Origin: Planctomycetes bacterium MalM25
GTDB lineage: Bacteria; Planctomycetota; Planctomycetia; Pirellulales; Lacipirellulaceae
Assembly (NCBI GenBank): GCA_007745835.1
Contig: CP036424.1
Coordinates: forward strand, 829,001-893,000
Reading direction: 5' to 3'
Length of the DNA: 64,000 nt
Positions 497 through 35,468 of the stretch are shown one piece after another. The notes under the pieces are model-generated. The model was not told the DNA's origin. It worked only from the letters and a program-made list of their open reading frames with translations, and ran no database searches. Each line of letters starts with the position of its first letter. Position 1 is the first letter of the stretch. Made by a program: the position numbers and the translations under genes.

Positions 497-819
497 CGAT
501 CCCACCTCCGTGCTACCAAGTGAGTTCCACTCACTCGGCTCTAAGGACGTGGATCGATCCCGGTTCGGTTACGGGATAGGCTCTAAGCCTCGGTCTAGTC
601 TAGCGAGCCGGGCCGGGGCGTGAGGCCAGACTGCACAGCATCGACGCCTCCTGTGCCGGTTAGCGGTCGGAAGGCACGGGCTCCGAATGGCGGCTCGAAT
701 ACCCCGACCGCGACGCTCCAAACTCGCCGAGGTCTGCCGGACCGACGCGGGTTGGCGTTCGGCCGTAGTTGCGGCGGTTGGTCCAACCGACCGAACTTTG
801 AGGGACCAGTAATTCGCGG
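497..819. other. Intergenic region between IS5 element and DUF4405 gene
   Basis: No convincing gene. It should contain the outer end of the IS5 element. The 9-mer GGCTCTAAG occurs at 537-545 and again at 579-587, which may mark that end, but the other terminus lies outside the window so the inverted repeat cannot be confirmed. Confidence 0.4.
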
Positions 820-1866: not shown

Positions 1867-1932
1867 GGAAGGCAAACGCGTTCCACCTACAGGGACTGGC
1901 GGCTGGGCAGCGGAATCCGGAGCGCGGGTGCG

Positions 1933-4900: not shown

Positions 4901-5001
4901 CGCCACTGGCCGCGAACATCAACGGCCGCCTTTAGCGGCAGCGCGATCGAAACCGCAGCCACAAGAGCTAGGCATCGTAAGGCTCGAACATCCATATGCA
5001 T
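1933..5001 (-). CDS. Exported LamG / FAD-dependent oxidoreductase / discoidin protein
   Basis: Large exported flavoprotein of about 1022 residues. After a signal peptide ([20 protein letters not shown]...) comes a LamG/concanavalin-like domain (about 15-220), a carbohydrate-binding-like beta domain (about 255-395), a FAD_oxidored domain opening with the Rossmann motif [15 protein letters not shown] and followed by GGNNSSEMG, and a C-terminal F5/8 type C (discoidin) domain with [20 protein letters not shown]_oxidored proteins are numerous in planctomycetes, but their substrates are largely unknown; the two sugar-binding-type domains suggest a polysaccharide-derived substrate (inference). Start 5001 is chosen at the signal peptide; an in-frame extension reaches 5169 but has no export-like sequence. 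Confidence 0.8.
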
Positions 5002-5383
5002 CGGTGCCAGTAATGAAAGCATGGGTAAGAGGTTTGCCGCCTCCCGCTGAGACTGCTGCAGCGAAGGAGGGATGCGATGGTTGGGACGGCGAGGAGCCAG
5101 ATTGCCTACAGTATACCACATGGCAATCCTAGGCGTCGGCTCGCAGCTCCCCTTGTTCATTGACTCCACACGTAGCCGGACGGCTGTCTGGCTGCTCTCG
5201 TAAGACGGGATCGCGAAGTGTTAGCTCAGGCTTGCCTGGACCATGTGTCGCTGCGGCTAAGTGCCTAAGTCACCATCAAACGGCAGATGCCGCCGGCCTG
5301 CAATTTGCTTCTGTGAAGCACTTCGCTTGGCGAGCACGCGATCGCCGGACTTTGCCCGCCGCTGCCGGGCGGACCCGCCACGC

Positions 5384-7126: not shown

Positions 7127-7479
7127 CACCTTGTCTCGGGTGGACCTCACGCACAGGGCGGATCGATGATAGTCGGTCGCTCTAATTCGGTAGAGCGATG
7201 ACGGTGAATCAAGTCGAGGATGCATCTTCATGTGGGCCTTCATTTGGTTTGCCGGTGCATGCCGGGCCTAACGCACTTGTGAGCTAACTATTGGTGGGTG
7301 AAACAAGAGCGAACCAAACGCGTCTGACGTCGCGGGAACTTGAAGGTCATCTTTGCGGCTGTAGTGCGAAGCGACGGGGTCGGTTGGCTCCGGATGCACG
7401 ATTGATACGAACCGTTAGCAGATACGGACCGACCAACGTCGGCGGTCTTGGATGCCCTGTTTGGATCAGGAACAACGCG
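7127..7479. other. Gap and leader around the sulfatase and cupin genes
   Basis: Short in-frame leader to the sulfatase (7127-7243) followed by about 235 bases without a supported gene. No clear terminator or operator was recognised. Confidence 0.3.
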
Positions 7480-8382
7480 TCAGCTACTTGGCGGACGTCC
7501 AAGGATAGGGGGGTCACTGCGTTCAATGTGGTACTCGCCACTTGCGCGGATGTAGATCACGCAGTCTGACTCCCGCCCTGATCGGAGGCGCCACCGTGAG
7601 TCGCTGGGGAGCTCAACAGCCGAGCCCGTGCTGAGCGGTTCGGTGTCGATGTTGTCCTCATCGAGGAAACGGAGACTGCCTGTAACGACGATCATCCTGA
7701 GGCGGCCCGAGGTTGGCCCGATCATGCCTTGGAAGCCCGGCGGTAGCTTCAGGAAGGTGCCGCCAGGCTTCCCTGATTTTGGGCTTCCCCAGAGCAAGGC
7801 TACCTGAGCCGTTGCGCCGTCGCTGCCGCCTTCGGGTTCCTGGCCCCACCCCGCTTTCTTCACGTCGAGCCACACCAAATTCGAGACGTCGACATTGATT
7901 GGTCGTTCGCCGTTGTCGAACGCCTCGTCGGTAGGCTGCACGAGGTAGGGCCCGCTGTCGATCTCAACGTAGGCGACGCCCGCACCACGTGATGAGGTGA
8001 TGTGCGGCTCGCCGGCGGGTTGGGTCCAAAAAGAGCCAGGGGGCATCCACATCGGTTTGGCTTCGGGGTCGTCGTTGTGGAGGTGGCCGCCGAGAACAAT
8101 CGCCCGGTAAGAGATGTTGTGGATGTGCGGTGGCGAGGAGAAGCCATCGACAAATTTCACGAGGAAACCCGAGGCTCCAGGTTGAGTCTGGTCGCCCCAA
8201 AGCGTTCCCGCTTGGGGCCCCCGTGCGCCCCGCTTTGGGTTGAGCGGCCTCCAGTGGATATCCGACGTTCGGACGACTTGAAGTTGCTCAGTCGAAGCCT
8301 CTTCCTCGGCTTGGCACACCGAGATGCAGGCGCTGAAGCCGGCTACCGCAAGCAGTTGCATTAGCCGCATGGTGCTCCCCAT
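7480..8382 (-). CDS. Exported DUF4437 double-cupin protein
   Basis: Protein of about 300 residues with a signal peptide (MRLMQLLAVAGFSACISVCQA) and two cupin-like halves. The first half has a metal-site pattern, SSPPHIHNISYRAIVLGGHLHND, and GEPHITSS; this matches DUF4437, a ChrR-like cupin family. The second half (QVALLWGSPKSGKPGGTFLKL...) repeats the fold with fewer histidines. Function is unknown; a small-molecule sensor or isomerase role is possible. It is divergent from the sulfatase at 8863 and upstream of another sulfatase gene on its own strand. Start 8382 or 8370; both precede the signal peptide. Confidence 0.7.
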   Translation of the reverse strand: MGSTMRLMQLLAVAGFSACISVCQAEEEASTEQLQVVRTSDIHWRPLNPKRGARGPQAGTLWGDQTQPGASGFLVKFVDGFSSPPHIHNISYRAIVLGGHLHNDDPEAKPMWMPPGSFWTQPAGEPHITSSRGAGVAYVEIDSGPYLVQPTDEAFDNGERPINVDVSNLVWLDVKKAGWGQEPEGGSDGATAQVALLWGSPKSGKPGGTFLKLPPGFQGMIGPTSGRLRMIVVTGSLRFLDEDNIDTEPLSTGSAVELPSDSRWRLRSGRESDCVIYIRASGEYHIERSDPPILGRPPSS

Positions 8383-12332: not shown

Positions 12333-14563
12333 CCCATCGCCCCAAACCACAAGAGGCCCCACGACGGATCGACACTGACACAACCCTCCCAACCCCGGAG
12401 AAATCGATGGAACTGTCAACCAGGGACACCGCGATCCTTTATGCGTTCGATAACGGCTACGCCGTCTTCCCCTGCAAGCCGGGCGACAAGCGACCCGCGA
12501 CGCCGCACGGCTGCAAGGACGCCACGACTTCCCCGAAAGTGATCGCCGACTTATTTGCCGAGGGAGGCAACGTGGGGATCGCCACGGGCCCCGCATCGGG
12601 ATTCTTCGTGCTCGGCATCGATGGGGAGGAGGGCGAATGCTCCCTGGCGGAGTTGATCGAGCGGCACGGTGAACTGCCGGAGACGGTGACCACCAAGACG
12701 CCCCGCGGTGGTCGGCACCTCTACTTCGATCTGCCCGGGGATGCCGACGTTCGCAACTCGGCAGGCAAACTCGGCCCCAAGCTCGACGTCCGTGGCGACG
12801 GGGGGTACGTCGTCGCCCCTCCGAGCCGGCTCCCAAACGGCGACTACAGCTGGATCAAATCCCCGGATGAGATCGAAGTGGCGAAGGCGCCCGATTGGCT
12901 GATCGAGCTAGTCACCGAGCCGAAGCGAGAGGCGACGTCGATCACGGATGGCGAGGTCCCCGAAGGGGAACGCAACCAAACGCTGGCCAGTCGGGCTGGC
13001 AGCCTGCGGCGGGTCGGGTTCTGCGCCCAAGCGATGGAGGCGGCTCTGTTGGTCGAGAACCAGAAGATCTGCAACCCACCGTTGCCCAACAACGAGGTCC
13101 GGCGGATCGCCAAGAGCGTTGGTCGGTACGCACCCGAGAACGGAGTGAGTGGGGCGCCGGCTTACAAGCCGTTCCCAACGGAGACGTTACCCAGTCCCTT
13201 CCGTGAGTTCGTCGAGCAAGGGGCCGAAGCGATCGGCTGCGACGCCAGCTACCTGGCGTTGCCACTGCTGACCGGAGCCGCCTCGGCGATCGGCAACACG
13301 CGTCGCATCGAGCTGAAGAAGGGGTGGACCGAGCCTTCGATCCTCTGGTCGGCCATCGTGGGCGACTCGGGCACGATGAAGAGCCCGGCGCTCGAGGCCG
13401 CCCTGCGTCCGGTCAAGCAGCGCCAAGAGCAAGCGTGGGACTCGCACGTCTTCGCCCTCGCGGAATGCGAGGGCCAGAAGCTGACCTACGAGAAGGAGCT
13501 GACCGCGTGGAAGAAGTCATCCGGATCGGGGGAGCCCCCCGTCGCCCCCGAGGAGCCCGTGCTGCCACGCACGTGGGCCGACGACCTGACCGTGGAGGCG
13601 TTGGCTTCTCTGCTCCAGCAGCAGCCCCGTGGGCTCCTGGTGGCGTGCGATGAGCTGGCGAGCTGGTTCGGCGGGTTCGACCGGTACGCCCAAGCGAGCG
13701 GAGGAGACGCGGCTCGTTGGCTCGAGATGCATGGCGGTCGATCGATCCAGGTTGATCGCAAGACGGGCGAACCGCGTACGATCTTCGTGAAGCGGGCCTC
13801 GGTCTCGGTGACCGGGGGGATCCAGCCGGGCGTCTTACGACGGGCGCTGAAGCCGCAGCACCGTGAGAGCGGCTTGGCCGCCCGCCTCCTGCTGGCGAAC
13901 CCACCGCGTAAGCCCAAGGTATGGACCGAGGCGGAGCTCGATGCGGATCGGACTGGGGCGGTCCAACAGGTTTTTGAGGGGCTCTACGAGCTGCAGGGGG
14001 ATCCCAACGGTGACGAGATCGTTCCAATCTCTGTCTCGCTCTCATCGGCGGCCAAGCGGGTCTGGGTCGACTTCTACAACGAGCACGCCGAGGAGTCCGC
14101 CATCGAGACGGGCGACTTGGCGGCCGCCTGGGCCAAGCTGGAGGGGATGGCCGCCAGGCTGGCGCTGGTGATCCAGTTAGTGGAGGATGTTCAGACGGGC
14201 GTTTCTGGCGGAGAGGTCTCCGTGGAATCGATGCGACGGGGCATCCGGCTGGTCGAGTGGTTCAAGCACGAAACCCGGCGGGCGTACGCCTCGTTCCGCG
14301 AGGATGCGGAAGAGCGGGGGGAGGGCGCCGTGGTCGAGAAGCTGATCCAGAAGGGAGGCTCGATGTCCGTACGGGACCTGCAGCGTTGCGGCAAGCGTTG
14401 GGAGACCAACGAAGCGGCGACCGGAGCTTTCGAACGTCTAAAGCAGGCGGGCAAAGGTCATTGGGAAGTCGTGCCCACTGGCCCCAAGGGAGGTCGACCG
14501 ACTCGGCAGTTCGTCCTCGAGCAGGAGGGCGACGACACAACCGGCTTCGATGACGGGGTTTAG
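12329..14563 (+). CDS. Prim-pol / DUF3987 replication protein of a mobile element
   Basis: Protein of 744 residues. The N-terminal part (about 29-210) is a bifunctional DNA primase/polymerase domain (YAVFPCKPGDKRPATPHGCK, NVGIATGPASGFFVLGIDGE, TPRGGRHLYF). A short primase-C-terminal-like segment follows (NNEVRRIAKSVGRYAPE), then a DUF3987 helicase-like domain with a Walker-A-type loop GDSGTMKS and a Walker-B-like LLVACDELASWF. Such fusions are typical replication proteins of integrative elements and satellites. It starts inside the stop of the HTH gene (ATGA overlap); a second ATG at 12407 in MELSTRDTAI is an alternative start. The integrase gene follows 74 bases downstream. Confidence 0.85.
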   Translation: MTHRPKPQEAPRRIDTDTTLPTPEKSMELSTRDTAILYAFDNGYAVFPCKPGDKRPATPHGCKDATTSPKVIADLFAEGGNVGIATGPASGFFVLGIDGEEGECSLAELIERHGELPETVTTKTPRGGRHLYFDLPGDADVRNSAGKLGPKLDVRGDGGYVVAPPSRLPNGDYSWIKSPDEIEVAKAPDWLIELVTEPKREATSITDGEVPEGERNQTLASRAGSLRRVGFCAQAMEAALLVENQKICNPPLPNNEVRRIAKSVGRYAPENGVSGAPAYKPFPTETLPSPFREFVEQGAEAIGCDASYLALPLLTGAASAIGNTRRIELKKGWTEPSILWSAIVGDSGTMKSPALEAALRPVKQRQEQAWDSHVFALAECEGQKLTYEKELTAWKKSSGSGEPPVAPEEPVLPRTWADDLTVEALASLLQQQPRGLLVACDELASWFGGFDRYAQASGGDAARWLEMHGGRSIQVDRKTGEPRTIFVKRASVSVTGGIQPGVLRRALKPQHRESGLAARLLLANPPRKPKVWTEAELDADRTGAVQQVFEGLYELQGDPNGDEIVPISVSLSSAAKRVWVDFYNEHAEESAIETGDLAAAWAKLEGMAARLALVIQLVEDVQTGVSGGEVSVESMRRGIRLVEWFKHETRRAYASFREDAEERGEGAVVEKLIQKGGSMSVRDLQRCGKRWETNEAATGAFERLKQAGKGHWEVVPTGPKGGRPTRQFVLEQEGDDTTGFDDGV

Positions 14564-23435: not shown

Positions 23436-24860
23436 TTGCGCGACCAATCGAACCCAACGGCGATCTCCTCGGGATTCTTCAAGCACTGGCTCGCCAAGCG
23501 GAGTGAGCGGGTGACCACGAGCGTGGCGGTCGTGGCGGCATTCTCAGCGTATTTTTCGATGTACGCCTTCCGCAAGCCGTTCGCCGCGGCGACCTATGAG
23601 AGCGAGGGAGTTGAGTTCCTCGGCGCTCTGTTCGGCCTGAAGACCCTGTACGTTGTCTCTCAGGTTCTCGGGTACGCACTCTCCAAGTACCTCGGCATCC
23701 GTGTCTGCTCACAGACCCAACGCGGCACGCGGTTCCGATTGCTGGTCGGTTTGATCCTGGCCGCCGAAGCCGCCTTGCTGGCCTTTGCCCTGACGCCTGA
23801 GGACGCGGTTTGGCTGAAGGCGCTGGCGCTCTTCGCCAATGGCCTCCCGCTCGGGATGGTCTGGGGGACCGTCGTCCTTTATCTCGAAGGGCGAAGGGCG
23901 TCTGAGGTGTTGATGACCGGGCTCAGCTGCTCTTTCATCGTGGCGAGTGGCGTGGTGAAAGATCTCGGTCGGGCGCTGCTCGCCGGCGCCGATTTCCCGA
24001 TCCCGTTCGCCGGCGAGTTGGGCTGGGCGTTGCCGAACCCTTTCCCGGCGACCCCTGAGTACTGGATGCCGGCCGCCACCGGGGCTCTTTTCCTTGCTCC
24101 GCTGCTGGTTTCCGCTTGGGTGCTGGAACAGGTTCCCGACCCGAACGAACAAGACCGAGCGGAACGCGTTGAACGATGCCCCATGGGACGGTCGGAAAGG
24201 GCCGCTTTTCTTAGGCGATTCGCCCTGGGGGTCTTCGTCGCGATCGGGGCGTATGTCGCCCTCACCGCCTTCCGCGATTACCGGGACACCTACGCGGTCG
24301 AGCTGTTCACCGAACTTGGGTACGACTACGCGAACAACAAGACCGCGGTCTCTCAGGCTGAGCTGCTGGTCGCGTTCGGCGTTATGGGGGTCCTGTCGCA
24401 GCTCTTCCGCATCCGAGACAACCGTCGAGCGTTGTTGGCCACCTACGCCCTCATGGCCGGGGGTCTGCTGCTTGCTGGCGGGGCCACGGCCCTGTTGGAC
24501 GCTGGCCACCTCGACGGTTTCTGGTGGATGACCCTCATCGGGCTGGGGGGGTACCTTGCGTATGTTCCCTTCAACTCGGTCCTCTTCGATCGAGTCATCG
24601 CGACCACCGGGTTCTCGGGCACCGCGGTGTTTGGCATCTACCTCGCGGACGCCGCGGGCTATACGGGCACGGTCGCTCTCTTGCTCGGGAAAGACGTGTT
24701 TCTGGCGGGGTCTTCGCCCGTGGTCGTGGTCCGAGCCTTCTGCTACGCGCTGGCGACGCTAGGCGTCGCCGCACTGGCCTTGAGTTGCTTCGCTTTTGTG
24801 CGAACTCCACCCGTCAGAAATGCGCAGACGAACAACGAAGCGTCGGTGGCGTTGCGCTAG
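23436..24860 (+). CDS. DUF5690 / MFS-like transporter of phosphonate cluster
   Basis: Integral membrane protein of 474 residues with about 12 hydrophobic helices. The start of helix 1, SAYFSMYAFRKPFAAATY, is typical of DUF5690, a family related to the major facilitator superfamily. The position, divergent from the PhnZ-like/FAD/phnX operon, suggests uptake of a phosphonate, perhaps an aminophosphonate or its precursor; this is inference. The start is a TTG at 23436; no ATG occurs until within the first helix. The C-terminus (TPPVRNAQTNNEASVALR) is cytoplasmic. Confidence 0.75.
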   Translation: MRDQSNPTAISSGFFKHWLAKRSERVTTSVAVVAAFSAYFSMYAFRKPFAAATYESEGVEFLGALFGLKTLYVVSQVLGYALSKYLGIRVCSQTQRGTRFRLLVGLILAAEAALLAFALTPEDAVWLKALALFANGLPLGMVWGTVVLYLEGRRASEVLMTGLSCSFIVASGVVKDLGRALLAGADFPIPFAGELGWALPNPFPATPEYWMPAATGALFLAPLLVSAWVLEQVPDPNEQDRAERVERCPMGRSERAAFLRRFALGVFVAIGAYVALTAFRDYRDTYAVELFTELGYDYANNKTAVSQAELLVAFGVMGVLSQLFRIRDNRRALLATYALMAGGLLLAGGATALLDAGHLDGFWWMTLIGLGGYLAYVPFNSVLFDRVIATTGFSGTAVFGIYLADAAGYTGTVALLLGKDVFLAGSSPVVVVRAFCYALATLGVAALALSCFAFVRTPPVRNAQTNNEASVALR

Positions 24861-25065
24861 GCGGCAAATACTGCGTGATATTTCGGTGATGATTATCGAG
24901 TCGCTCCAAACCCGAATCTGATCCTCACGATTCCTTCACGGGAGACCTCCAGACTCCGCGGGCGTTCGAGACGTCGCCAGTCGTGGCCACGAATCGAAAC
25001 ACCCTGATTGGCGCACGAGCGTTTGTGACGCCGCAATGAAACTCGGTCTTGAGGTAATCAGTCTG

Positions 25066-26844
25066 ATGAAGCGACACCTGTGGTGGATGCCTTGCGTAGC
25101 TGTAGCGGCCGGTCTCACCGGCGTTTCCGCGAACGCTCAACTGAACACAATTGTGTTCTCAGAGAACTTTGACAGCCTCGCTGGCACGCTCGGCGATAGC
25201 GTCAACGAGCGTCAAGGATTCCCGATTGTCACGGAGCTGGCGACCGACACCGACTCGGAGCCGATCGCGAACGCCTTCAGCTCGACCGGCCCCGCCGGCT
25301 GGGTCGTCAACAATAACCTCGGCAGCTACCAAGGCTCGCCCACGCTCGGCAACGCCGGCGTCCCAGGCCAGGGGGTCGCTGATTACGGCGTCGATGAGTG
25401 GCAGGGCTGGAACTTCGCCAGCAAGGACTTCTGGTCCGAGGCGGCCGGCGACCAGGATCGCTCGCTGTTCACGAACGCCACCGGCACGATCGCCGTGGTC
25501 GATCCCGACGAGTACTTCGACCTCGGCCCGACCGACGGTTCGACCGGCGGTCCCAGCAACCCGGTTAACGGAGGGTTCTACAACTCGGGTCTCAGCACCC
25601 CGGGAATCTCGGTCGCACCGGGCACCCTCTACACCCTGAGCTTCGATTCGAGCTGGCGTCCTGAGTCGCTCGACGATGGGCACCCGAACAATGACGGGAC
25701 CCTGCTGGATGGTGACAACAACCCGATCCCCGACAGCGACAACGACCCCCTGACGAGCTTCGTCGACCTGAACAACCAGGCGGTTGAAGTGGTCGCCGTG
25801 TTCGATAACGGCGTCCGCCAGACCCGCACCGCGTGGGACTCGCTGGGCCCCGCGAACCCGGGCGACCCGATCCCCGCCAGCTTCAAGGACGACACGCCCA
25901 ACGAGCGTATCGACAACCTCAACTTCGGCGTGCCCGCGGGCGCGACGTCGGTGAAGTTCGAGTTCAACATCGCCAACGCCGGCAACGACTGGTGGTGGGC
26001 GATCGATAACCTCGCGGTCAACGAGCTCGTTGGCGGGGCCGAAGTGTGGACCGAAGACTTCGAGGGCGTCGCCCTCGGTGACAGCGTCAACGAGCGTCGC
26101 TCGCTCGTGGCCGACAAGGTGACCGCCGCCAACGACGACGCCGAGACCTTCGTCCGTCCCGATTCGTTCACGAAGGACGCCCCCGCCGGCTGGAACGTTG
26201 ATAACTCGGACACGCCCGCCGATACGCTTGGCGACAACAACGTCGGCGTCTTCGAGTGGGAGGGCTGGAGCTTCGCGACGGAAGACTTCTGGACCTTCGC
26301 CGACGGCAGCGGTCGTGGCGATTTCGATAACGCCTCGGGCGTCTTCGCCATCGCCGACGGCGACGAGTGGGACGACCTCGGCGATCCGACCGACCTGGGT
26401 GAGCTGAACACGCTGCTCGAAACCCCGGCCATCGACATCCCCGCCATCGCCGACGGTTCGCGGTTCGCGATCAAGTTCGATTCGAGCTGGCGTGACGAGG
26501 ACGATCAAGCGGCGATCCTGACGGTTTCGCTCGACGGCGGTTCGCCGACCGAGATCCTCCGTTGGGAGTCGCAGCAGACGCTCGACCCGAACAACACCCC
26601 CGGTGATCCTTCGGACGACGTCCCCAACCCGTTCTTCCACGACGACAACACGAACGAGATGGTCTTGCTGGAGATCGATACGGCCGGCGCCTCGACCGCT
26701 CAGTTCGCGTTCCGCTACATCGGCACCAACGATTGGTGGTGGGCCGTGGACAACATCCAGGTGGGCATCATCCCCGAGCCTTCGACCGGCCTCCTGCTGG
26801 TCCTCGGTGGCTTGCTCCCCTTCCTAAACGGCCGCCGCGGCTGA
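25066..26844 (+). CDS. PEP-CTERM protein with two copies of a repeated domain
   Basis: Exported protein of about 592 residues: signal peptide MKRHLWWMPCVAVAAGLTGV..., then two similar domains of about 250 residues each, and a sorting tail IPEPSTGLLLVLGGLLPFLN plus GRRG. Each repeat shows the same landmarks: GDSVNERR/Q, PAGW(N/V)V(D/N)N, GW(S/N)FA, a DPDEY or DGDEWDD box, FDSSWR, and a closing NDWWWA(I/V)DN. Two further copies lie in the next gene. I do not recognise the domain; it looks like a beta-sandwich adhesin or glycan-binding module. ATG 25066 is chosen over 25036 at the signal peptide. Separated from the next gene by 167 bases and a hairpin. Confidence 0.8.
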   Translation: MKRHLWWMPCVAVAAGLTGVSANAQLNTIVFSENFDSLAGTLGDSVNERQGFPIVTELATDTDSEPIANAFSSTGPAGWVVNNNLGSYQGSPTLGNAGVPGQGVADYGVDEWQGWNFASKDFWSEAAGDQDRSLFTNATGTIAVVDPDEYFDLGPTDGSTGGPSNPVNGGFYNSGLSTPGISVAPGTLYTLSFDSSWRPESLDDGHPNNDGTLLDGDNNPIPDSDNDPLTSFVDLNNQAVEVVAVFDNGVRQTRTAWDSLGPANPGDPIPASFKDDTPNERIDNLNFGVPAGATSVKFEFNIANAGNDWWWAIDNLAVNELVGGAEVWTEDFEGVALGDSVNERRSLVADKVTAANDDAETFVRPDSFTKDAPAGWNVDNSDTPADTLGDNNVGVFEWEGWSFATEDFWTFADGSGRGDFDNASGVFAIADGDEWDDLGDPTDLGELNTLLETPAIDIPAIADGSRFAIKFDSSWRDEDDQAAILTVSLDGGSPTEILRWESQQTLDPNNTPGDPSDDVPNPFFHDDNTNEMVLLEIDTAGASTAQFAFRYIGTNDWWWAVDNIQVGIIPEPSTGLLLVLGGLLPFLNGRRG

Positions 26845-26867
26845 GTTCGCGACGACACGACGAGCCC

Positions 26868-26895
26868 CCGCGGGCGGCGATCTCGCCGCCCGCGG
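26868..26895 (+). terminator. GC-rich hairpin between PEP-CTERM genes
   Basis: Perfect 13-bp arms 26868-26880 and 26883-26895 (ccgcgggcggcga and its complement) with a 2-base loop, 24 bases after the stop of the upstream gene. No T-tract follows. Confidence 0.5.
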
Positions 26896-27011
26896 ACCGG
26901 CTCGATCTTCCTTCCTGCCCACCGGGGCCTCCGCCCAAACACTCTCGCCGCCCGCGCGAGTCTTCGGGCCGTACGCCCATTGATCTCCCACCGAAGAGGA
27001 TCCCTCCTTCG

Positions 27012-30000
27012 ATGAATACGTTCTCCCTGAATCGTTTCGCCTTGCTGCTTGCAGCGGCTATGCAGCTCGCCCTCCCCGGCTCAGCGTTAGCGGTCGACTT
27101 CTTCACGGAAGACTTCGAAGGGCTGACCCTCGGCCAGATCGTCACCTTTGAATCGGAGATCCGGGAGCGAGAAGCGTGGACCAAGACCGGCCCCGCCGGA
27201 TGGACGATCGATGACTCGGGCGTACCGACCGTCGGTAACCCGCTGACGGGCGTCACGGAATTCGAGGGGTGGTCTTTCGTCAGCAAGGACTGGTGGCAGA
27301 CCACCGCCGGCGATCAGGGGCGAACCGAATTCCTGAACGCCCGAGGGATCGTTGCGGTTGCCGATCCCGATGAATGGGACGACTTCGGCACGCCTCAGCC
27401 GGAGGACCTCGATACGAACAACGACGAGGAGAAGAACGACTTCAGCGCACGGCTGCTCACCCCGGCCATCAATGTGGGGGGCGCCGGCGTCAACGAGCTG
27501 AAGGCTTTCCTGCATTCGTCCTGGCGCCCGGAGGACAACCAGAAGGCGACCATCAACGCCATCTACGACGGTGGCGCCCCGGTCGAAGTGCTGCGATACG
27601 AATCGGAGGAGAATCTACCGGACGAGACGCCCAACCCTTTCTACAAGGACGACGCGACCAACGAGGCGCTCACCCTCGACCTGCTCAACCCGGACGGCGC
27701 CTCCACGGTGCAACTCGAGTTCCGCCTCTTCGACGCCGGCAACGACTGGTGGTGGGCCTTCGATAACCTGCAGGTTTTCACCGGGGCTTCGCCCGCCTCG
27801 GACGCCGTCCTGCGGGTGCTGATCGACCGTGACACGCAAGAAGTGACGATCCAGAACAACACCGGCGAGGCGGTCGATCTGCGGGGCTACTCGATCACTT
27901 CGAGCGCCGGAGTGTTCGACGAAGCCAGCGCCGCGTTCCTCTCGGGGGGAGACGCGAACTGGCTGCAAGCCACCCAACTCGGGGACGAAGCCAACGACCT
28001 GAGCGAGGTGCACCTCACCAGCGACATGCTGGCCGCCGGCGAGGCGATCGCTCTCGGCGCGGTTTGGGGGCAGTACTTCGAGGACGCTTCGGACGTCGGC
28101 TTTGAGTACCTCCTTGCGAGCAGCGACGATCCCGTTTCGGGCATCATCGAGTTTATCGGGAACGATGACGAGTCGTTCGAGTTCCTCGATCTCAACTTCA
28201 ACGGGGAGATCGAGATCGGTGACTGGGAGGCCTTCAAGTCGGGATTCGGAACCGCGCTCGACGGGCTCAACGGATACGAGCGCTACACCCTCGGCGACCT
28301 GGACGACGACGGCCTGCACACCGCCGCCGACTTCATCACCTTCGAGCGACTCTACGACCAAGCCAATGGCGCGGGCGCCTTCGCCGCCGCCCTGAGCGTT
28401 CCGGAGCCTTCCGGATTCGCCATCGCCGGCTTGGCGATCCTCGGCCTCGTTGGTCGGCGTCGACTCGTTAGGGCGACACCGCTGGCGGCGGCCTTGCTGG
28501 TCGCCCTGTTTGTCTGCCACGCGGACGCCCAGCTGAAGCTGCTCGACGAGGACTTCGAATCGCTCTCGCTCCTCGATCCTGTCGAAGAGGAAGGCGCCCC
28601 GGGGGAGGATGTCGTCACCCGCATCGCGCCGGCGGGCTGGACGATCGACAATTCGGGCATCCCCGGTCTGGGGGACCCCGAGACCGACGGGATCGTCGAC
28701 TGGGCCGGGTGGTCGTTCGCCAACAAGGACTGGTGGGCCTTGGCCGCCGGCGACCAGAACCGGACGCAGTTCACCCGCGGTCAGGGAACGATCATGGTAG
28801 CCGACAACGATGAATGGGACGACGACGACAACCCGGTTGATGAAACGGATGATCTCTACGACACATTCATCAAGACGCCCGTCATCAATATCCCGGCGGG
28901 GGTTCCGGCGGGCCGACTCCAGCTGATCTTTGATTCGAGCTGGCGAGACGAGGCCGACACCGCGGGCCCCGACAGCCCCGCAAGCAACCAAACGGCCACG
29001 GTCCAGGCTTTCTACAACGGATCGAGCAACGGGCTTGAAGTGCTCCGCTGGGAGTCGGACGCGGAGTCGGATTTCTTCAAGGACGACGCCGAAGACGAAC
29101 GCGTCGTGCTCGACCTGCAATACGACGGTTCCGCGACGTCCATCGAGCTCGAGTTCGGTCTCGGCGAAGCGAACAACGACTGGTGGTGGGCGATTGATAA
29201 CCTGCTGGTCGCGGTCCCCGCGGATCCGTCGATCCTGCGGGTCAACACCTTCAACGGTCAGGGGACGCTCGTCGGTGGGGATGTGATCCCCACGCCGATC
29301 AAGTCGATCGACATCACCAGCGAGAATGGCGTGCTGACCGGCGCCGCCTCGGGGCTGACCGCCTCGGCGGGCGACAGCCTCGATGGCCCCGACGCGGGAT
29401 CGACCGCGGGCGACTCGCCTGGCGAGCAGTGGGAGATCCTGACCTCGTCAGAAGAACGCCTGTTCGAGGCCTACTTGTTCGGTGAGTCGGTGTTCGACGA
29501 GAACCGTTCGGCCAACCTTGGTTCGATTCTCGATCTCTCGGCCGACGAAGCGGACCGAGACCTCAGCTTCACTTACACAACCGACGCGGGCGACCTCATC
29601 GAGGGGGTGGTCGAGTACTTCTTTGACGACACGGTCGGCCTGCCGGGCGACTTCAATCTGGACGGTGCCGTCGATGCGGCCGACTACACGGTCTGGCGTG
29701 ACGGCCTCGGCACGACCTACGTGCAGGCCGACTACGACACCTGGAAGAACAACTACGGCGCCACGGCCTCTTCGAACGCAGCCGTCGCAGCGGTGCCCGA
29801 ACCGGGCGCCCTTGCCCTCATAGGCCTTGGCTTACTGACGGCGTTGGCCCGTCGGGTCCGCCGACCGGCGTGTGTGGCTGCCGCAACGCTCGCTGCCGCG
29901 GGGGTCACCACGACGGATGCGGAAGCCTTCACGCTCGACCGTGACTACACGTTCGGCGACTCCACCTTCAGCGAGAACGCCGTGGCGGGCGCCGAGGTTG

Positions 30001-31118
30001 GGGGGGCTTCGATTAATGGGGCGACTCGTGACAGTGCCGGACAGCCCGGCATGAATCAGATCATTGACTTGTTGCCCAACGGCAACCTGTTCATCCAACC
30101 GAAGTACATCGCGATCAACGATCGTCCCGACGGCGTGAGCGGTCTTGGCATCGACTTGAATCCGTTGGGCCTCGAAGAGCAGTACCTCGCTACCGGCTTC
30201 GAGGAGGCGCTCAACTTCCCCGAGCGTTCCGCTTCTTCGACGTTCGCTATCGGGGGCACGATCGACTACACCGTGATCAGCGATCGAGGTTTTAGCATCT
30301 GGGCCAAGCCCTCCGCTCTGCCGACAGCTGGCAACCAAGCCAACATCGTGATGGACACCAACCAACACGGTGTGTTCATCAATGACCAGGGCAACTACGC
30401 GATGCGATACGCCGATCGTGATTACGCGTCAGAGATCCCGGCGGCCGTCGGCGATTGGGCTCACCTCTCGGTGGTTCGCGCCTTCGGGCCGGGCAGCGGT
30501 TCGATCCTGTATGTGGACGGCGTCGCGGCGGCCGCGACCACGGGTCAGTACCGCATCGAGCGAGTGGTCAACGAAGATACGCCGACGAGCAACATCGCCG
30601 ACCTCGACACCAGCCCCCTCGTGGTGGGCGGCAGCACCGGGGCGATCCAATCGCTGGTCGGAAATTCCGATCACTTCAGCGGGGTTGTGGATGATCTGGA
30701 GATGTTCGTCATGGGGCTGAACGCCTCGAATGATTTCGGCGAGTACGTCTTCGAACGCGACGATCGCTACGCGGCCGCCTTCAAGCCGAGCAACCCGGTC
30801 GATCTGACCGGCGAAGGGTCGATCGATTTCGCCGACGCGATCGAGTTCGCCTCGAACTGGCGTTCCGAGAAAAGCCTCACCTGGATCGACGCAGGAGGGA
30901 CCGAGTCGAGCCTCGTGGTCGGCGACTTGGAGACGCGTGGACGCGGCGACTTCAACTTCGACGGACGCGTCGATCTGGCGGACTGGGGCATGCTCAACAA
31001 CGCCAGCCCCGCCACGGCCGCCGCGGCGATGCGTCTGATCGCGGGGGTGATCCCCGAGCCCAGCACGGGCGTCCTGGTGCTGCTAGCGATTTCCGGGCTA
31101 ACCGTCCGCCGTCGGTGA
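27012..31118 (+). CDS. Triple PEP-CTERM apparent polyprotein
   Basis: Single open frame of 1368 codons made of three complete exported proteins in tandem. Unit 1 (1 to about 485): signal peptide ending SALA, the same NDWWWA domain as the upstream gene, a lamin-tail-like segment, a dockerin-like pair (DLNFNGEIEIGDWEAF, LGDLDDDGLHTAADF), then VPEP at 463 with a hydrophobic helix and RRR. Unit 2 (about 486-950): a second hydrophobic signal-like stretch ending CHADA-Q507, another NDWWWA domain, dockerin GDFNLDGAVDAADYTVW, then VPEP at 928 with helix and RRVRR. Unit 3 (about 951-1368): signal-like helix ending DAEAF, a LamG-like domain, dockerin GDFNFDGRVDLADW, and IPEPSTGVLVLL at 1347. There is no ATG at either junction. 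Confidence 0.85.
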   Translation: MNTFSLNRFALLLAAAMQLALPGSALAVDFFTEDFEGLTLGQIVTFESEIREREAWTKTGPAGWTIDDSGVPTVGNPLTGVTEFEGWSFVSKDWWQTTAGDQGRTEFLNARGIVAVADPDEWDDFGTPQPEDLDTNNDEEKNDFSARLLTPAINVGGAGVNELKAFLHSSWRPEDNQKATINAIYDGGAPVEVLRYESEENLPDETPNPFYKDDATNEALTLDLLNPDGASTVQLEFRLFDAGNDWWWAFDNLQVFTGASPASDAVLRVLIDRDTQEVTIQNNTGEAVDLRGYSITSSAGVFDEASAAFLSGGDANWLQATQLGDEANDLSEVHLTSDMLAAGEAIALGAVWGQYFEDASDVGFEYLLASSDDPVSGIIEFIGNDDESFEFLDLNFNGEIEIGDWEAFKSGFGTALDGLNGYERYTLGDLDDDGLHTAADFITFERLYDQANGAGAFAAALSVPEPSGFAIAGLAILGLVGRRRLVRATPLAAALLVALFVCHADAQLKLLDEDFESLSLLDPVEEEGAPGEDVVTRIAPAGWTIDNSGIPGLGDPETDGIVDWAGWSFANKDWWALAAGDQNRTQFTRGQGTIMVADNDEWDDDDNPVDETDDLYDTFIKTPVINIPAGVPAGRLQLIFDSSWRDEADTAGPDSPASNQTATVQAFYNGSSNGLEVLRWESDAESDFFKDDAEDERVVLDLQYDGSATSIELEFGLGEANNDWWWAIDNLLVAVPADPSILRVNTFNGQGTLVGGDVIPTPIKSIDITSENGVLTGAASGLTASAGDSLDGPDAGSTAGDSPGEQWEILTSSEERLFEAYLFGESVFDENRSANLGSILDLSADEADRDLSFTYTTDAGDLIEGVVEYFFDDTVGLPGDFNLDGAVDAADYTVWRDGLGTTYVQADYDTWKNNYGATASSNAAVAAVPEPGALALIGLGLLTALARRVRRPACVAAATLAAAGVTTTDAEAFTLDRDYTFGDSTFSENAVAGAEVGGASINGATRDSAGQPGMNQIIDLLPNGNLFIQPKYIAINDRPDGVSGLGIDLNPLGLEEQYLATGFEEALNFPERSASSTFAIGGTIDYTVISDRGFSIWAKPSALPTAGNQANIVMDTNQHGVFINDQGNYAMRYADRDYASEIPAAVGDWAHLSVVRAFGPGSGSILYVDGVAAAATTGQYRIERVVNEDTPTSNIADLDTSPLVVGGSTGAIQSLVGNSDHFSGVVDDLEMFVMGLNASNDFGEYVFERDDRYAAAFKPSNPVDLTGEGSIDFADAIEFASNWRSEKSLTWIDAGGTESSLVVGDLETRGRGDFNFDGRVDLADWGMLNNASPATAAAAMRLIAGVIPEPSTGVLVLLAISGLTVRRR

Positions 31119-31264
31119 ACCGCGACGACGCGACTGCGCGGACAGGCAGCTTCTTTGCGCCGTGAGCCGCGTCAGGAGCAGCTCAAAACACGAAGATCGA
31201 GACTCTCGGCAGGCAGCCATACGCTGTCACCATCCGTCTCACCGTATCAAGGAATGAGAGGCAG

Positions 31265-32395
31265 ATGCTTAATCGCAAACGACAAGTCAGAACCGATCGC
31301 AACGCCATCGAGCGAAACGCATTCACTCTCGTGGAACTGCTGGTGGTGATCGCCATCATCGGCATCCTCGTGGCGCTGCTTCTGCCAGCGGTCCAGGCGG
31401 CCCGTGAAGCGGCCCGACGCACCCAGTGCAACAGCCGGCTGCACAACATCGGCATCGCAATTCAGAACTACGAATCGACTTTCGGAAAGCTCCCCCCCGG
31501 CGCCCATTTCCGCGAGGGAAGCGGCTGGGGCGCTTTCTTGCTGCCCTTCATCGAGGAGGGGGCGCAGTTCAACGACCTCCAGATCGGCGAAGACAAGTTC
31601 AACAACTTCCAATGGGCCCACAACGGCGAGTACGACAGCGTCGAAGACCTCGGCGAGAGCTTTCAGAACATCCGGGCGGCGGAGACCTCCTTCCAGATGT
31701 ACACGTGCCCCTCCTCGATCTTCATCAAGAATCAACTCGATCGCACGGCCGACCAGTGGTGGGTGATGCGTCGTGCTCCCGCTTCCTATCTGGGAGTGGC
31801 TTCGGGGATCCTTCAGGATCAGATCGAATCGTGGCGTTGGCGGGTCAAGCACCGCACTCCCCCACCAGCGAACCCGAACTGGGGCGGCGCCGATGGTGTG
31901 CTGGTCGGTATCGACCACGAGTACGACACCAAGAAGGGGCAGATACCGCTTCGGAAGATTACCGATGGGACCTCGAAAACCGGCCTGATCGGCGAGGCGG
32001 TCCACGACATCGATACGCAAGAAGACTGGGGGCAAAACCCGGAAGAACGGGAGGGCAACCGCAAGGACCACTGGGCGATCGGCAGCGACGACATCGACAC
32101 CGGCAGCGAGAACATCAGCGATGTCTCCGAATTGCTCGGATCGACCGGCGTGCCGCCCAACCTGGGGCTCGATTCCTTTGAGAACCGCGAGCTCTGCGCC
32201 AGCGGGCGCCACACGCAACCGCCTTGTCAGCAGTTGCAGATCTCGTTCAGCAGCCGGCACCCGGGCGTTGTGAACATGTGCTACGTCGACGCCCACGTGG
32301 AGTCCATCAGCGCTGACATCGAGGCGCAGGTCTGGAGCGACATCGGCACCCGCGCCAGTCAGACGTACGAGACGGGTGGAGCGGATCGACTGTGA
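31265..32395 (+). CDS. DUF1559 type II pseudopilin-like protein
   Basis: Protein of 376 residues with a prepilin N-terminus: a short basic leader, then NAFTLVELLVVIAIIGILVA and LLLPAVQAAREAARR, followed by the DUF1559 domain (NIGIAIQNYESTFGKLPPGA, TGLIGEAVHD, FSSRHPGVVNMCYVDAHV). These proteins are highly expanded in planctomycetes and are presumed to assemble in a type II secretion or pilus-like machine. It is the first gene of a tightly overlapped operon: its TGA overlaps the GTG of the phosphodiesterase gene (GTGA, 4 bases). This suggests it helps to export or position the two downstream phosphoesterases (inference). ATG at 31265 is preceded by AGAGGC. Confidence 0.9.
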   Translation: MLNRKRQVRTDRNAIERNAFTLVELLVVIAIIGILVALLLPAVQAAREAARRTQCNSRLHNIGIAIQNYESTFGKLPPGAHFREGSGWGAFLLPFIEEGAQFNDLQIGEDKFNNFQWAHNGEYDSVEDLGESFQNIRAAETSFQMYTCPSSIFIKNQLDRTADQWWVMRRAPASYLGVASGILQDQIESWRWRVKHRTPPPANPNWGGADGVLVGIDHEYDTKKGQIPLRKITDGTSKTGLIGEAVHDIDTQEDWGQNPEEREGNRKDHWAIGSDDIDTGSENISDVSELLGSTGVPPNLGLDSFENRELCASGRHTQPPCQQLQISFSSRHPGVVNMCYVDAHVESISADIEAQVWSDIGTRASQTYETGGADRL

Positions 32396-33639
32396 TTCTT
32401 GCTAAGCATCTCGTGCCGCTGCTGCTAGGGCTTTCCACGATCGCTTCGGCTCAGCCGAGCAAGCATGTCCTCATGATCGGCATCGACGGGGCGGGGGGGC
32501 GGTACGTGCAGCGTGCCAACACCCCCCACCTGGATGCACTCGCGGCTGCGGGCACGGCTCGTTACGACTTCTACAACGAGGGAGGCCTCGTCCCCAATCC
32601 GCCGAATCCGTACGGCGCCAGTGGCGTCAACTGGTCGACCATCCTGACCGGCGCGTCGGCAGCCAATCACGGTGTTTCGGACAACAGCTTCGCGGGGGCG
32701 GACTTCGAGAGCCACCCGCACTTCTTCAAGCACGTGAAGGAGTTCGATCCGGACATCTCAACGGTGTCGCTCGTCAACTGGACGCCGATCAACACGTTCA
32801 TCACGCCCGACGAATACGCCAACGTGGAGATCGGCTTTGATTTCGGCTCGATCGTTGACCAAGACAACGAAGTCAAGAATCAGACCAACCTCTTCTTGAC
32901 TCTGAGCGATCCCGACGTGATGTTCCTGCACTTCGATCAGGTCGATAGCTTCGGGCACGGGAACTCGTGGGGCAGCCCCCAGCACTTGGCGGCGATCGAA
33001 CGAGTCGATGGCTTGATCGGTGAGATCGTGACGACCCTCAACGGCCGGCCCGGCGTCGTCTCGGGCGATGAGGATTGGCTCGTCCTGATCACCGCCGACC
33101 ACGGCGCCGCCGAGGGCGCCTTCAACCACACGGCCGATCAGGGGCCCGCGAACTGGGAGGTCCCTTTCATCGCGGCCGGCCCGAGCGTGACGCCCGGCGC
33201 GCCGATGCAACCGGGAACGCTCCGAGACCTCGCGTCAACGGCGCTGTGGCACCTCGGGATCGATCCCTTCCTCGCCGGTCTCGACGGGACCGTCCGCGGG
33301 CTGACCGTTGAGCCGCCTACCGGAGTGGTGGGCGATCTCAACGGTGACGGCGTCCTGCTGGGAGACGGGACCGGCCCCGCGGCGGCCGACGATGTCACCA
33401 CCTTCCTCGACAACTGGCTCGCGACGGGCTCCGGTGGCGTCGCCGACCGTTACGCCCGGGGCGACCTGAACTTCGACGGCCGCACCGACCTCTCCGACTG
33501 GGCGTTGTTCAACCGACTGGATCCTTCGATGGGCCAAGCCGTCCTCGCCCGATTGCAAGGCGTACCGGAGCCCTCGGCATGCCTCTTGCTTTCGATCGCC
33601 GCCCTCCTCGCCCTTCATCGCCGACGAGAACCCGCATGA
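32392..33639 (+). CDS. Exported type I phosphodiesterase with dockerin and PEP-CTERM
   Basis: Alkaline-phosphatase-superfamily enzyme of 415 residues of the nucleotide pyrophosphatase/phosphodiesterase type. Signal peptide to about residue 20, metal-binding MIGIDGAGG, a Thr/Ser nucleophile region NWSTILTGASAANHGV, FDQVDSFGHG and ITADHGAAEG metal ligands. The C-terminus carries dockerin-like EF-hand loops (GDLNGDGVLLGDG, GDLNFDGRTDLSDW) and a sorting signal VPEPSACLLLSIAALLALHR with Arg-rich end. It should release phosphate from phosphodiesters outside the cell. The GTG start overlaps the upstream pseudopilin stop, and its own stop overlaps the next gene's ATG. Confidence 0.88.
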   Translation: MILAKHLVPLLLGLSTIASAQPSKHVLMIGIDGAGGRYVQRANTPHLDALAAAGTARYDFYNEGGLVPNPPNPYGASGVNWSTILTGASAANHGVSDNSFAGADFESHPHFFKHVKEFDPDISTVSLVNWTPINTFITPDEYANVEIGFDFGSIVDQDNEVKNQTNLFLTLSDPDVMFLHFDQVDSFGHGNSWGSPQHLAAIERVDGLIGEIVTTLNGRPGVVSGDEDWLVLITADHGAAEGAFNHTADQGPANWEVPFIAAGPSVTPGAPMQPGTLRDLASTALWHLGIDPFLAGLDGTVRGLTVEPPTGVVGDLNGDGVLLGDGTGPAAADDVTTFLDNWLATGSGGVADRYARGDLNFDGRTDLSDWALFNRLDPSMGQAVLARLQGVPEPSACLLLSIAALLALHRRREPA

Positions 33640-35468
33640 TGCTCGCACGACAAACCGCCCTCGTTCCCCTGATTACGGCTGTCGTGGCCAATGTGGCGGC
33701 CGCCCATCAAGGGCCCGATCCGATAGCGCATTGGAGCTTCAACTCGCGCAGCGTCTCGGATGGCGTCTGCAAGGCGCGGCTCGGCGCGGACCTGCGGCTT
33801 GAGGGGGACTACGCCCTTGCTCGCGACGCCTACGGAGAGGCGCTCGACCTCACCGGATGGAACCAGATCGCGAGCGAAGCGACCGGCTCGATCGGTTTGG
33901 AGGGCGCGGACGCGTTCACCGTTTCGGCTTGGGTGCTGATCGATGAGGCCGAGCGCTGGGGGGGGGTCGTCGGCCAGCATGGCGAGGACTCGCCGCTCTG
34001 GGTGCTCGGATACGACAGCGAGCGCTTCACCTTCTCGTTAACGACGGTCGCGTCGGATCAGCCGGTCGAAGTGCGAGGCGAAACGCCCTACGGCAAAGGC
34101 AAATGGTTCCACGTCGCCGCGGTCTATGACGGAGAGTCGGCGCGTCTGTACGTGAACGGCCAGCTCGACGCGAAGGGCGCCGCCAGCGGGAAAATCACCA
34201 CCACCGACGACTCGGTGGTCGTGCTCGGGAGCCGTCCCGATCATCCCGACAGCCACCCCATGCGGGGACGCCTCCGAGAGGTGAGTCTCTACGACTTGGC
34301 AGCGAAGCCGGCGTGGGTTGCCCACACCTTCGATCATGGTAAGCAACTCGTCTCGATGCAGCGCGACGCCCGCGCCGACGCACTGACATTGGTCGTGAAG
34401 CCTTACTTGCAGTTCGGAACGCAAACCGGAATGACCGTGATGTGGCAGACTTCGGCGCCCGGCGACTCGGTCGTCCACTACGGACCGACCGCGGATTGTG
34501 AGAAGGAGTTGGCCGCGGAGGGAGTTGGGCCGATCCACGAGGTGCGGATCGAGGGGCTCGAACCCGAGACGCAGTACTTCTATCGGACCGTGACGACCGA
34601 CACCTCGGGGCGTTCCATCGAGAGCCGTGTCTCCACGTTCTCAACCGCCGTCCACGACGACAGCCCCTTCGCCTTTGCGATCATCAGCGACACCCAGACC
34701 AACGCCGACATCGCTCATCGCGTTGCGACCCATGCGTGGGCCCAGCGCCCGAGCTTCCTGCTCCACCCGGGCGACCTGGTGGAGACCGGCACCAACGACA
34801 GCCACTGGACGCAGCACTTCTTCCCGAGCCTCGACCCGCTGATCTCGCGCGTGCCCTTCTATCCGGTGCTCGGCAACCACGAGCAGAACGCCAGCAACTA
34901 CTACGAGTACGTCTCCCTGCCCGACCCCGAGTACTACTACGAGTTCCGCTACGGCAACGCTCACTTCTTCATGATCGACACGAATCGCAATGTCGATCCG
35001 AGCTCCGAGCAACACCGGTGGCTCGACAGGGCCTTGGCCGCCTCGGACGCGACCTGGAAGTTCGTGTGCCACCACCACCCGCCCTATTCGTCGGATGAGA
35101 ACGACTACGGCGATCTCTGGCAGACGAGCCAGAGCACGCGTGGCGACCTGCGAGCCCGGCAGCTTTCCAAGCTCTACGACAAGCACAGCGTCGACATCGT
35201 CTGGAACGGGCACATCCACTCGTACGAAAGAACCTGGCCCGTTCGTGACGGTAAAGCGGTCGATGGCGAAGGCCCGATCTACATGATCGTCGGCGGCGGC
35301 GGTGGCGGGCTCGAGACGCCCGGTCCCACGCGCCCCTTCTTCCAGAACCAAGTCCGCCGGGCCCATCACTACGTGATGGTGCACATCAACGGTCCAAACC
35401 TCGAACTGCGCAGCTACGACCTGGATGACCGCCTCTTTGATACAGTGCAACTCCGAGCGAGGCGTTGA
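33636..35468 (+). CDS. LamG / purple-acid-phosphatase-type metallophosphatase
   Basis: Exported phosphatase of 610 residues. Signal peptide to about 25, LamG domain (about 30-240), a fibronectin-like N-terminal domain of purple acid phosphatases (about 250-340; VVKPYLQFGTQTGMTVMWQT, LEPETQYFYRTV), then a calcineurin-type metallophosphoesterase: FAIISDTQTN, HPGDLVETGTN, VLGNHEQNASNYYEY, VCHHHPPYSS and WNGHIHSYER supply the metal and catalytic residues. DTQ replaces the more common DxG/DxH at the first metal site. The ATG at 33636 overlaps the upstream stop (ATGA). Third gene of the operon. Role: phosphomonoester hydrolysis outside the cytoplasm, substrate unknown. Confidence 0.88.
   Translation: MMLARQTALVPLITAVVANVAAAHQGPDPIAHWSFNSRSVSDGVCKARLGADLRLEGDYALARDAYGEALDLTGWNQIASEATGSIGLEGADAFTVSAWVLIDEAERWGGVVGQHGEDSPLWVLGYDSERFTFSLTTVASDQPVEVRGETPYGKGKWFHVAAVYDGESARLYVNGQLDAKGAASGKITTTDDSVVVLGSRPDHPDSHPMRGRLREVSLYDLAAKPAWVAHTFDHGKQLVSMQRDARADALTLVVKPYLQFGTQTGMTVMWQTSAPGDSVVHYGPTADCEKELAAEGVGPIHEVRIEGLEPETQYFYRTVTTDTSGRSIESRVSTFSTAVHDDSPFAFAIISDTQTNADIAHRVATHAWAQRPSFLLHPGDLVETGTNDSHWTQHFFPSLDPLISRVPFYPVLGNHEQNASNYYEYVSLPDPEYYYEFRYGNAHFFMIDTNRNVDPSSEQHRWLDRALAASDATWKFVCHHHPPYSSDENDYGDLWQTSQSTRGDLRARQLSKLYDKHSVDIVWNGHIHSYERTWPVRDGKAVDGEGPIYMIVGGGGGGLETPGPTRPFFQNQVRRAHHYVMVHINGPNLELRSYDLDDRLFDTVQLRARR

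Follow-up and report, generated by a model that had tools for sequence, protein, structure and literature searches.

In the 64,000-nucleotide stretch of Planctomycetes bacterium MalM25 analyzed here (contig CP036424.1, positions 829,001 to 893,000; the window), a single open reading frame (ORF) holds three consecutive units, each ending in a PEP-CTERM sorting signal. We propose that this ORF probably encodes a polyprotein, which exosortase and signal peptidase would cut into three exported proteins. The architecture is conserved in related genomes, the joints between the units are constrained as coding sequence, and no internal start codon is conserved in their loops or early helices. In addition, the genome encodes an exosortase, and relatives carry related units as free-standing genes.

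One open frame with three PEP-CTERM signals

The frame spans 1,368 amino acids (aa) and runs uninterrupted on the plus strand from the ATG at 27012 to the TGA at 31118. It carries PEP-CTERM signals at residues 464, 929, and 1348, each comprising P-E-P, a hydrophobic helix, and a cluster rich in Arg, in agreement with an earlier note on this DNA that had described three such units fused in frame. Only the third signal is C-terminal; 902 residues follow the first PEP and 437 follow the second. Since the first two signals are internal, we classed the ORF as a polyprotein variant and not as an ordinary PEP-CTERM substrate. The whole protein matches PF07589 with an expectation value (E) of 2.8e-12, two stretches passing separately, and TIGR02595 matches the second site. 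The features of the ORF are as follows, with a slash marking each predicted signal peptidase site.

27012..31118, plus strand: putative three-unit PEP-CTERM polyprotein ORF, 1,368 aa (ORF call and orthologous open frames)
27012..27092, plus strand: predicted N-terminal signal peptide, residues 1-27, ending in GSALA/V (by inspection)
27093..28400, plus strand: unit 1, with a jelly-roll-like domain, a middle domain, and a dockerin-like region (sequence comparison; the dockerin by inspection, the fold a lead from a low-confidence model)
28401..28529, plus strand: predicted hairpin 1, residues 464-506, with PEP, helix, RRRLVR loop, second helix, and CHADA/Q site
28494..28496, plus strand: TTG, the sole ATG, GTG, or TTG in the loop and early helix of junction 1, without a Shine-Dalgarno (SD)-like site
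28530..29795, plus strand: unit 2, a paralogue of unit 1 with a dockerin-like region (PF00404 below cut-off)
29796..29927, plus strand: predicted hairpin 2, residues 929-972, with PEP, helix, RRVRR loop, second helix, and TTDAEA/F site
29874..29876, plus strand: GTG, the sole ATG, GTG, or TTG in the loop and early helix of junction 2, without an SD-like site
29928..31052, plus strand: unit 3, with a LamG-type domain (PF13385) and a dockerin-like region (PF13385 and PF00404 in sequences of alignment A3)
31053..31118, plus strand: terminal PEP-CTERM signal and stop (sequence)

The Arg clusters of both internal signals run straight into a second hydrophobic helix, with neither a stop codon nor an ATG between them. 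Signal peptides carry a basic n-region on the inner side of the membrane and are cut after A-x-A on the outer side. Both junctions of the window display the corresponding signal peptidase I features, namely a basic n-region, a hydrophobic core, and A-x-A, so that the signal-peptide-like helices ending in CHADA/Q and TTDAEA/F, which the earlier note had pointed out, are indeed present. Its further observation that the junctions offer only one TTG and one GTG, without an obvious ribosome site, was borne out as well: no SD-like sequence precedes TTG 28494 or GTG 29874. Both codons lie downstream of the arginines, and a start at either would therefore yield a signal peptide lacking its basic n-region.

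The first two units are paralogous, sharing 34% identity across 412 aligned columns. PF13385 was found in all six sequences of the unit 3 alignment (A3). PF00404, representing the dockerin-like regions that precede the PEP-CTERM signals, was found in three of the five sequences of alignment A2 and four of the six of A3, with a match below cut-off in the protein itself (P0001). For unit 1, one of the five A2 sequences also matched LTD. No sequence in the PDB matched P0001 at E<=0.01. Two AlphaFold2 models, built from 5 and 6 sequences, were poor, with mean predicted local distance difference test (pLDDT) scores of 48.5 and 41.7. Searching the PDB by fold with the first model returned generic jelly-rolls (MAM, cleaved adhesin, CBM61) among other matches of low template modeling (TM) score, which we take as a lead only; likewise, the likeness to a cleaved adhesin (4itc, TM 0.64 by target length) comes from a low-confidence model and is a structural lead only. 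In a plasmid collection, five records matched the domain region of units 1 and 2 at 29-33% identity. Two of these matches were annotated as phospholipase C and one as a metallophosphoesterase, one lay in an unannotated record, and one had no feature under it.

We then considered PEP-CTERM sites across the MalM25 genome, where a PF07589 scan scored 150 of 240 candidates. For 138 of the 150, the frame ends within 10 residues of the motif, and for 146 within 60 codons. Only four of the 150 scored matches are internal: the two in this ORF and those at 2867087 and 3011165. As a control, we read frame 0 past all 150 sites. A second helix followed in 21 cases, A-x-A in 29, and no stop in 5, and all three properties coincided at three sites, the two in this ORF and one other fusion. 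At 2867087 (L164, G000:C1:2863500-2871500, plus strand from 1881), two PEP-CTERM proteins are joined in frame with two ATGs at the joint; these are possibly two genes without a stop between them. The site at 3011165 (L163, G000:C1:3008000-3013500, minus strand from 4266) belongs to a PEP-CTERM protein that is trypsin-like by inspection, and its frame continues through the hairpin into a short piece resembling a second copy, with a stop 114 residues past the motif. A second fusion in this genome, at 2304866 (L210, G000:C1:2302000-2307500, plus strand from 1742), comprises two units in a 771-aa frame with no ATG at the joint; it lies outside the 150 scored matches and was found by the junction-profile search described below. 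The genome also contains an exosortase gene (PF09721, E 3.7e-44; TIGR04178 above cut-off), whose product has Cys, Arg, and His at the positions that we take to be those of the triad. Overall, at least 150 PEP-CTERM matches stand against one exosortase locus found in the genome (E<=0.001).

Conservation of the frame and its junctions

The earlier note had proposed searching relatives for the same architecture. We examined 59 relatives, scoring the best 10 candidates per genome, and the resulting distribution counts are thus lower bounds. The three-unit frame was recovered in at least 11 further assemblies of the same family (Lacipirellulaceae, as judged from named records), at about 49-57% identity over the best stretches, and the named species carrying it include Lacipirellula limnantheis (L033) and Aeoliella straminimaris (L035). 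We aligned 12 frames: that of MalM25, those of G007, G017, G021, G028, G033, G013, G005, G018, and G023, that of a metagenome-assembled genome (MAG; L031), and that of G004, which is cut by a contig end. Together, these represent seven genera and one MAG.

All 24 orthologous junctions combine PEP, a helix, a loop with 3-6 R/K residues, and a second helix, the latter defined by a 12-residue mean Kyte-Doolittle (KD) hydropathy of at least 2.0. A strict A-x-A is found in 21 of them. Candidate start codons follow no such pattern. An ATG occurs in the loop or early helix of only four of the 24 junctions and never in a shared alignment column, six junctions contain no ATG, GTG, or TTG in this region, and no SD-like site precedes any candidate start in any of the 24.

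Mean identity across the 12 frames was 0.36 at the junctions, compared with 0.23 for the N-terminal signal peptide, 0.41 for the terminal PEP-CTERM signal, and 0.42-0.60 for the other segments. We further computed the ratio of nonsynonymous to synonymous substitution rates (dN/dS) for five pairs. At the junctions it was 0.28-0.76 in four of the five pairs, each junction being taken whole, with both sides of the candidate starts together; within the units it was 0.09-0.41, and it remained below 1 in every computable segment, although dS approached saturation and, in one of the five pairs, was infinite at both junctions, so that these ratios are rough. Junction identity and dN/dS together indicate translation through the joints under in-frame constraint, much as in signal sequences. 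One uninterrupted, conserved, and coding-constrained frame thus extends across separable units, as expected of a polyprotein.

Split, fused, and longer frames

The earlier note had stated that separate genes in close relatives would speak against a polyprotein. Such genes exist in part, yet the 12-member clade keeps both fusions. In G001, of the same genus, the syntenic locus has unit 1 as a gene of its own, ending in RRRKESVCG-TAA, while units 2 and 3 are fused; the DUF1559, phosphodiesterase, and purple-acid-phosphatase genes follow downstream. Unit 2 of G001 has an apparent GTG start in another frame, overlapping the unit 1 stop (GTGGTTAA; L160, approximately 13200-13290), with AAAGGAG seven bases upstream, an arrangement that suggests translational coupling of the two genes.

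G014 and G015 each carry three separate tandem genes. All six begin with an ATG and a signal peptide-like start and end with a PEP-CTERM signal and a stop codon. In both genomes, the match between the third gene and unit 3 covers most of the gene, whereas the first two are only partly similar to units 1 and 2, in G014 in their second halves only and in G015 in reversed order. A DUF1559 gene follows the G015 cluster, and none of the window's neighboring genes was found around that of G014.

We reconstructed a tree from the LamG domain of unit 3. It had 25 rows at first, from which two very long ones (L173, fused, and L230, alone) were left out and to which G001 was added. The 12 fused orthologues form one clade (support 100/98), adjoined by the stand-alone unit 3 of G014 and of G031 in a group of 14 (86/93). 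G001 falls outside, and two state changes are needed in all. The retention of the fused state by the 12 members, together with separate genes in relatives, implies that the states interconvert and that the fusion is not an error.

To look beyond these orthologues, we built a profile (A1) from 30 junctions and searched it within Planctomycetota. The scans scored only part of the candidates, up to 150 in the family and 16-22 per genome in the phylum, order, and class, and the counts are again lower bounds. Separately, two chance matches (a 170-aa frame in L034 and a frame in L052) were left out of one set of matches, reducing it from 60 to 58. Among the matches listed for 43 genomes of the family at E<=1e-8, 54 fit the profile, some of them rows used to build it, and at least 45, in 17 genomes, were full-length (ending at profile position 48 or later) and free of stops. 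Across 294 genomes of the phylum (E<=1e-6), full-length stop-free matches among those scored came only from MalM25 itself (three) and G129 (one, with an ATG in the joint). Searches of 396 genomes of the order and 297 of the class of G129 revealed further fused families among the matches listed.

The architecture is general, which goes beyond the earlier note: elsewhere in the order, single frames carry up to ten PEP-CTERM signals. For example, a 2,427-aa frame in G376 (L246; G376:C14, minus strand, 10874-3594) contains seven PEP-CTERM and six FGE-sulfatase (PF03781) stretches, its units being 27-83% identical to each other. Similarly, a 2,531-aa frame in G359 (L247; G359:C91, plus strand, 3-7595), cut at the contig start, contains ten PEP-CTERM stretches together with LamG and F5/8-type domains, and five more contigs of this genome (L248-L252) hold frames with 3 to 6 PEP-CTERM signals. 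Both G376 and G359 are draft assemblies. The hairpin therefore joins cargoes of differing types and not only the units of this ORF.

All the sequence that we fetched contained 137 distinct internal PEP-CTERM sites, of which 130 (in the following, the wide set) have a second helix; they fall in 78 frames from 35 genome sources. Since the 137 sites were gathered by homology or by profile, this proportion is not a prevalence. The seven sites below the helix cut-off include one in L168 that is hairpin-like (KD 1.7), one in L247 whose helix lies further on, and several chance frames. A strict A-x-A is found at 94 of the 130 wide-set junctions, and 97 have no ATG in the loop or early helix. As for the 78 hairpin frames, 72 end in a PEP-CTERM signal, five are truncated where the fetched stretch ends, and one has no terminal signal.

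The genes around the ORF were also compared. Its neighbors in the window are as follows.

25036..26844, plus strand: PEP-CTERM protein with two unit-1-like domains and a single terminal signal, upstream of the ORF
31265..32395, plus strand: DUF1559 prepilin-like protein, downstream of the ORF
32392..33639, plus strand: PEP-CTERM protein of the phosphodiesterase/nucleotide pyrophosphatase type (PF01663)
33579..35468, plus strand: LamG domain with a purple-acid-phosphatase-type phosphoesterase

The upstream PEP-CTERM gene and the downstream DUF1559 gene adjoin the polyprotein gene at all 10 orthologous loci checked. The phosphodiesterase gene follows the DUF1559 gene at four of the 10 and lies elsewhere in the stretch at two, and the purple-acid-phosphatase-type gene was seen at one, several stretches being too short to tell in either case. 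More broadly, positions 23436-35468 form a cluster encoding a DUF5690 protein, PEP-CTERM proteins, and the DUF1559, phosphodiesterase-type, and purple-acid-phosphatase-type proteins, which is partly kept in relatives. From these neighbors and the matches of about 30% identity to phospholipase C and metallophosphoesterase, one might guess at a surface role in phosphoester use.

Proposed processing, its rivals, and known systems

We suggest the following course of processing. The whole ORF would be translated as a single chain, whose first signal peptide would direct unit 1 through the Sec pathway. Transfer would stop at the first PEP-CTERM helix, leaving the Arg cluster in the cytoplasm, where it would also supply the n-region for the signal peptide that follows and so serve both helices. 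The second helix would re-insert, the chain would re-enter the translocon, and unit 2 would be exported, with the same events repeated before unit 3. The precursor would consist of three exported units joined by two membrane hairpins, each with a basic loop in the cytoplasm. Signal peptidase I, cutting after A-x-A, would generate the N-termini of units 2 and 3, and exosortase, cutting at each PEP, the C-termini of units 1, 2, and 3. A single start codon and a single stop codon would thereby give three separate surface or matrix proteins in equal amounts, and the two hairpin peptides would be discarded. We infer this topology, both cleavages, and the equimolar outcome. The polyprotein architecture, the topological argument, and the lack of usable starts put forward in the earlier note hold and are kept across the family.

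The features that support this reading must also be weighed against other accounts of the same frame. The chain might stay uncut, or be cut at one kind of site only, and form a membrane-tethered array linked by transmembrane hairpins; in a variant of this account, exosortase would free each C-terminus while the next unit is held by its uncut signal anchor. Sequence by itself is no proof of cleavage, and the exact A-x-A is missing from three of the 24 orthologous and 36 of the 130 wide-set junctions. We nevertheless consider such an array unlikely, given that A-x-A is kept at 21 of the 24 orthologous junctions despite poor conservation of the junction sequence, that related units occur as stand-alone genes whose two ends carry ordinary signals, and that an exosortase gene is present. 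Slightly less plausible still is that units 2 and 3 are translated separately from non-ATG codons in the junctions, the missing stop being incidental. TTG 28494 and GTG 29874 do exist, and in G001 a GTG preceded by AAAGGAG can serve as the start of unit 2 at the syntenic locus. Against this, no start in the loop or early helix is conserved among the 12 orthologues, both candidates in the window lie downstream of the arginines, and dN/dS, taken over whole junctions in the upstream frame, stays below 1 wherever a value was obtained. Internal starts seem unlikely as a general explanation, given the lack of a conserved start or an SD-like site at the 24 orthologous junctions; they are possible in a minority of junctions elsewhere. 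The earlier note had also named an assembly or sequencing error that removed stops, or a decaying fusion, as alternatives. Nothing beyond the oddity of the frame itself speaks for these, and they are ruled out, leaving virtually no probability to them, by the same frame in independent assemblies and by dN/dS below 1 in the computable segments.

A further account accepts the processing proposed above and concerns the origin of the fusion, not its function: losing a stop and a start may be costless when the hairpin is cut anyway, in which case the fusion would be neutral. The abundance of PEP-CTERM sites in this genome (about 150 or more), the fused, overlapping, and separate states at related loci, and the joining of different cargoes in the same manner are all in line with neutrality, whereas the fused state in 12 of 12 clade members, which come from seven genera and a MAG and are about 49-57% identical to the ORF, and the two nearest neighbor genes kept at 10 of 10 loci checked argue against it. 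We regard neutrality as a serious possibility, somewhat short of an even chance. The fused state may have been selected for co-production, or it may be neutral since the joint is cut in any event; the evidence does not favor either.

Several observations weigh against the polyprotein reading itself. Units 1 and 2 are separate overlapping genes in G001, and the fusion is therefore not essential. Within the orthologous set, a slightly wider search region brings in a fifth ATG, at junction 2 of G013, and ATGs deep in the second helix of junction 2 are column-matched between G021 and G023. In the wide set, 33 of the 130 junctions have an ATG, and nine have a possible start together with an SD-like site, so that internal initiation is possible there. 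To these may be added the roughness of the dN/dS ratios and the low quality of the two AlphaFold2 models, which give no test of topology. Finally, the original description considered the very few PEP-CTERM signals with much longer tails to be possibly non-functional (Haft et al. 2006, PMC1569441).

In the same paper, PEP is positioned where periplasm and membrane meet, with the basic cluster on the inner side; the signal is described as C-terminal, with fewer than 10 residues following it in 87% of proteins, and hosts of PEP-CTERM substrates are associated with an outer membrane and with exopolysaccharide genes in the genome (PMC1569441). The present ORF resembles PEP-CTERM/EpsH sorting, as outlined there, in the signal peptide-like start and PEP-CTERM tail of each unit and in the presence of an exosortase gene; it differs in that its first two signals are internal and conserved, each also opening the signal peptide that follows. 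Consistent with the earlier note, which knew of no such case, we found no description of a PEP-CTERM polyprotein in the titles and abstract openings found among 5.39 million open-access papers, a scope outside which preprints and most subscription papers fall. No open-access paper was found to combine PEP-CTERM, exosortase, and polyprotein, and the title and abstract opening of PMC12078418 mention no PEP-CTERM polyprotein. In passages of PMC1569441 and PMC12188702, wording on internal, tandem, or multiple PEP-CTERM refers to counts of proteins.

Among other processed precursors, partial parallels can be drawn. Viral envelope polyproteins, such as the bunyavirus Gn/Gc precursor, also hold exported units in one chain; according to PMC5113920, the Gn/Gc precursor needs the internal Gc signal peptide for processing. 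They are, however, viral proteins processed in eukaryotic cells, with no second protease acting at a PEP-type motif of the upstream C-terminus.

FbcH of Bradyrhizobium japonicum is reportedly a polyprotein of cytochrome b and c1 cut at an internal signal peptide, which our literature search did not confirm. Like the product proposed here, it would be a bacterial polyprotein that signal peptidase divides at a signal peptide within the chain, but it has one junction, joins a respiratory membrane protein to a cytochrome, and involves neither a C-terminal sorting signal nor an exosortase. The gingipains and hemagglutinins with "cleaved adhesin" domains are likewise said to carry jelly-roll adhesin domains in a long precursor that is cut, though outside the cell by cysteine proteases and without membrane hairpins between the units.

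Sorting signals like PEP-CTERM have been regarded as C-terminal as a matter of definition, and rare internal examples as possibly non-functional. The conserved family described here, in which an internal sorting signal also begins the protein that follows, suggests that two proteases could together replace stop and start codons. Whether this extends to Pirellulales at large we judge evenly balanced: there, the hairpin would serve as punctuation at the protein level in place of stop and start codons, with 2-10 matrix proteins per frame made and exported in a single chain and cut apart by exosortase on one side of each hairpin and signal peptidase on the other. Substrates in which two cuts are predicted approximately 40 residues apart would be useful for a direct view of exosortase cleavage. 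If the proposal is true, annotation would change, since each frame of roughly 700 to 2,500 aa may represent 2 to 10 separate proteins.

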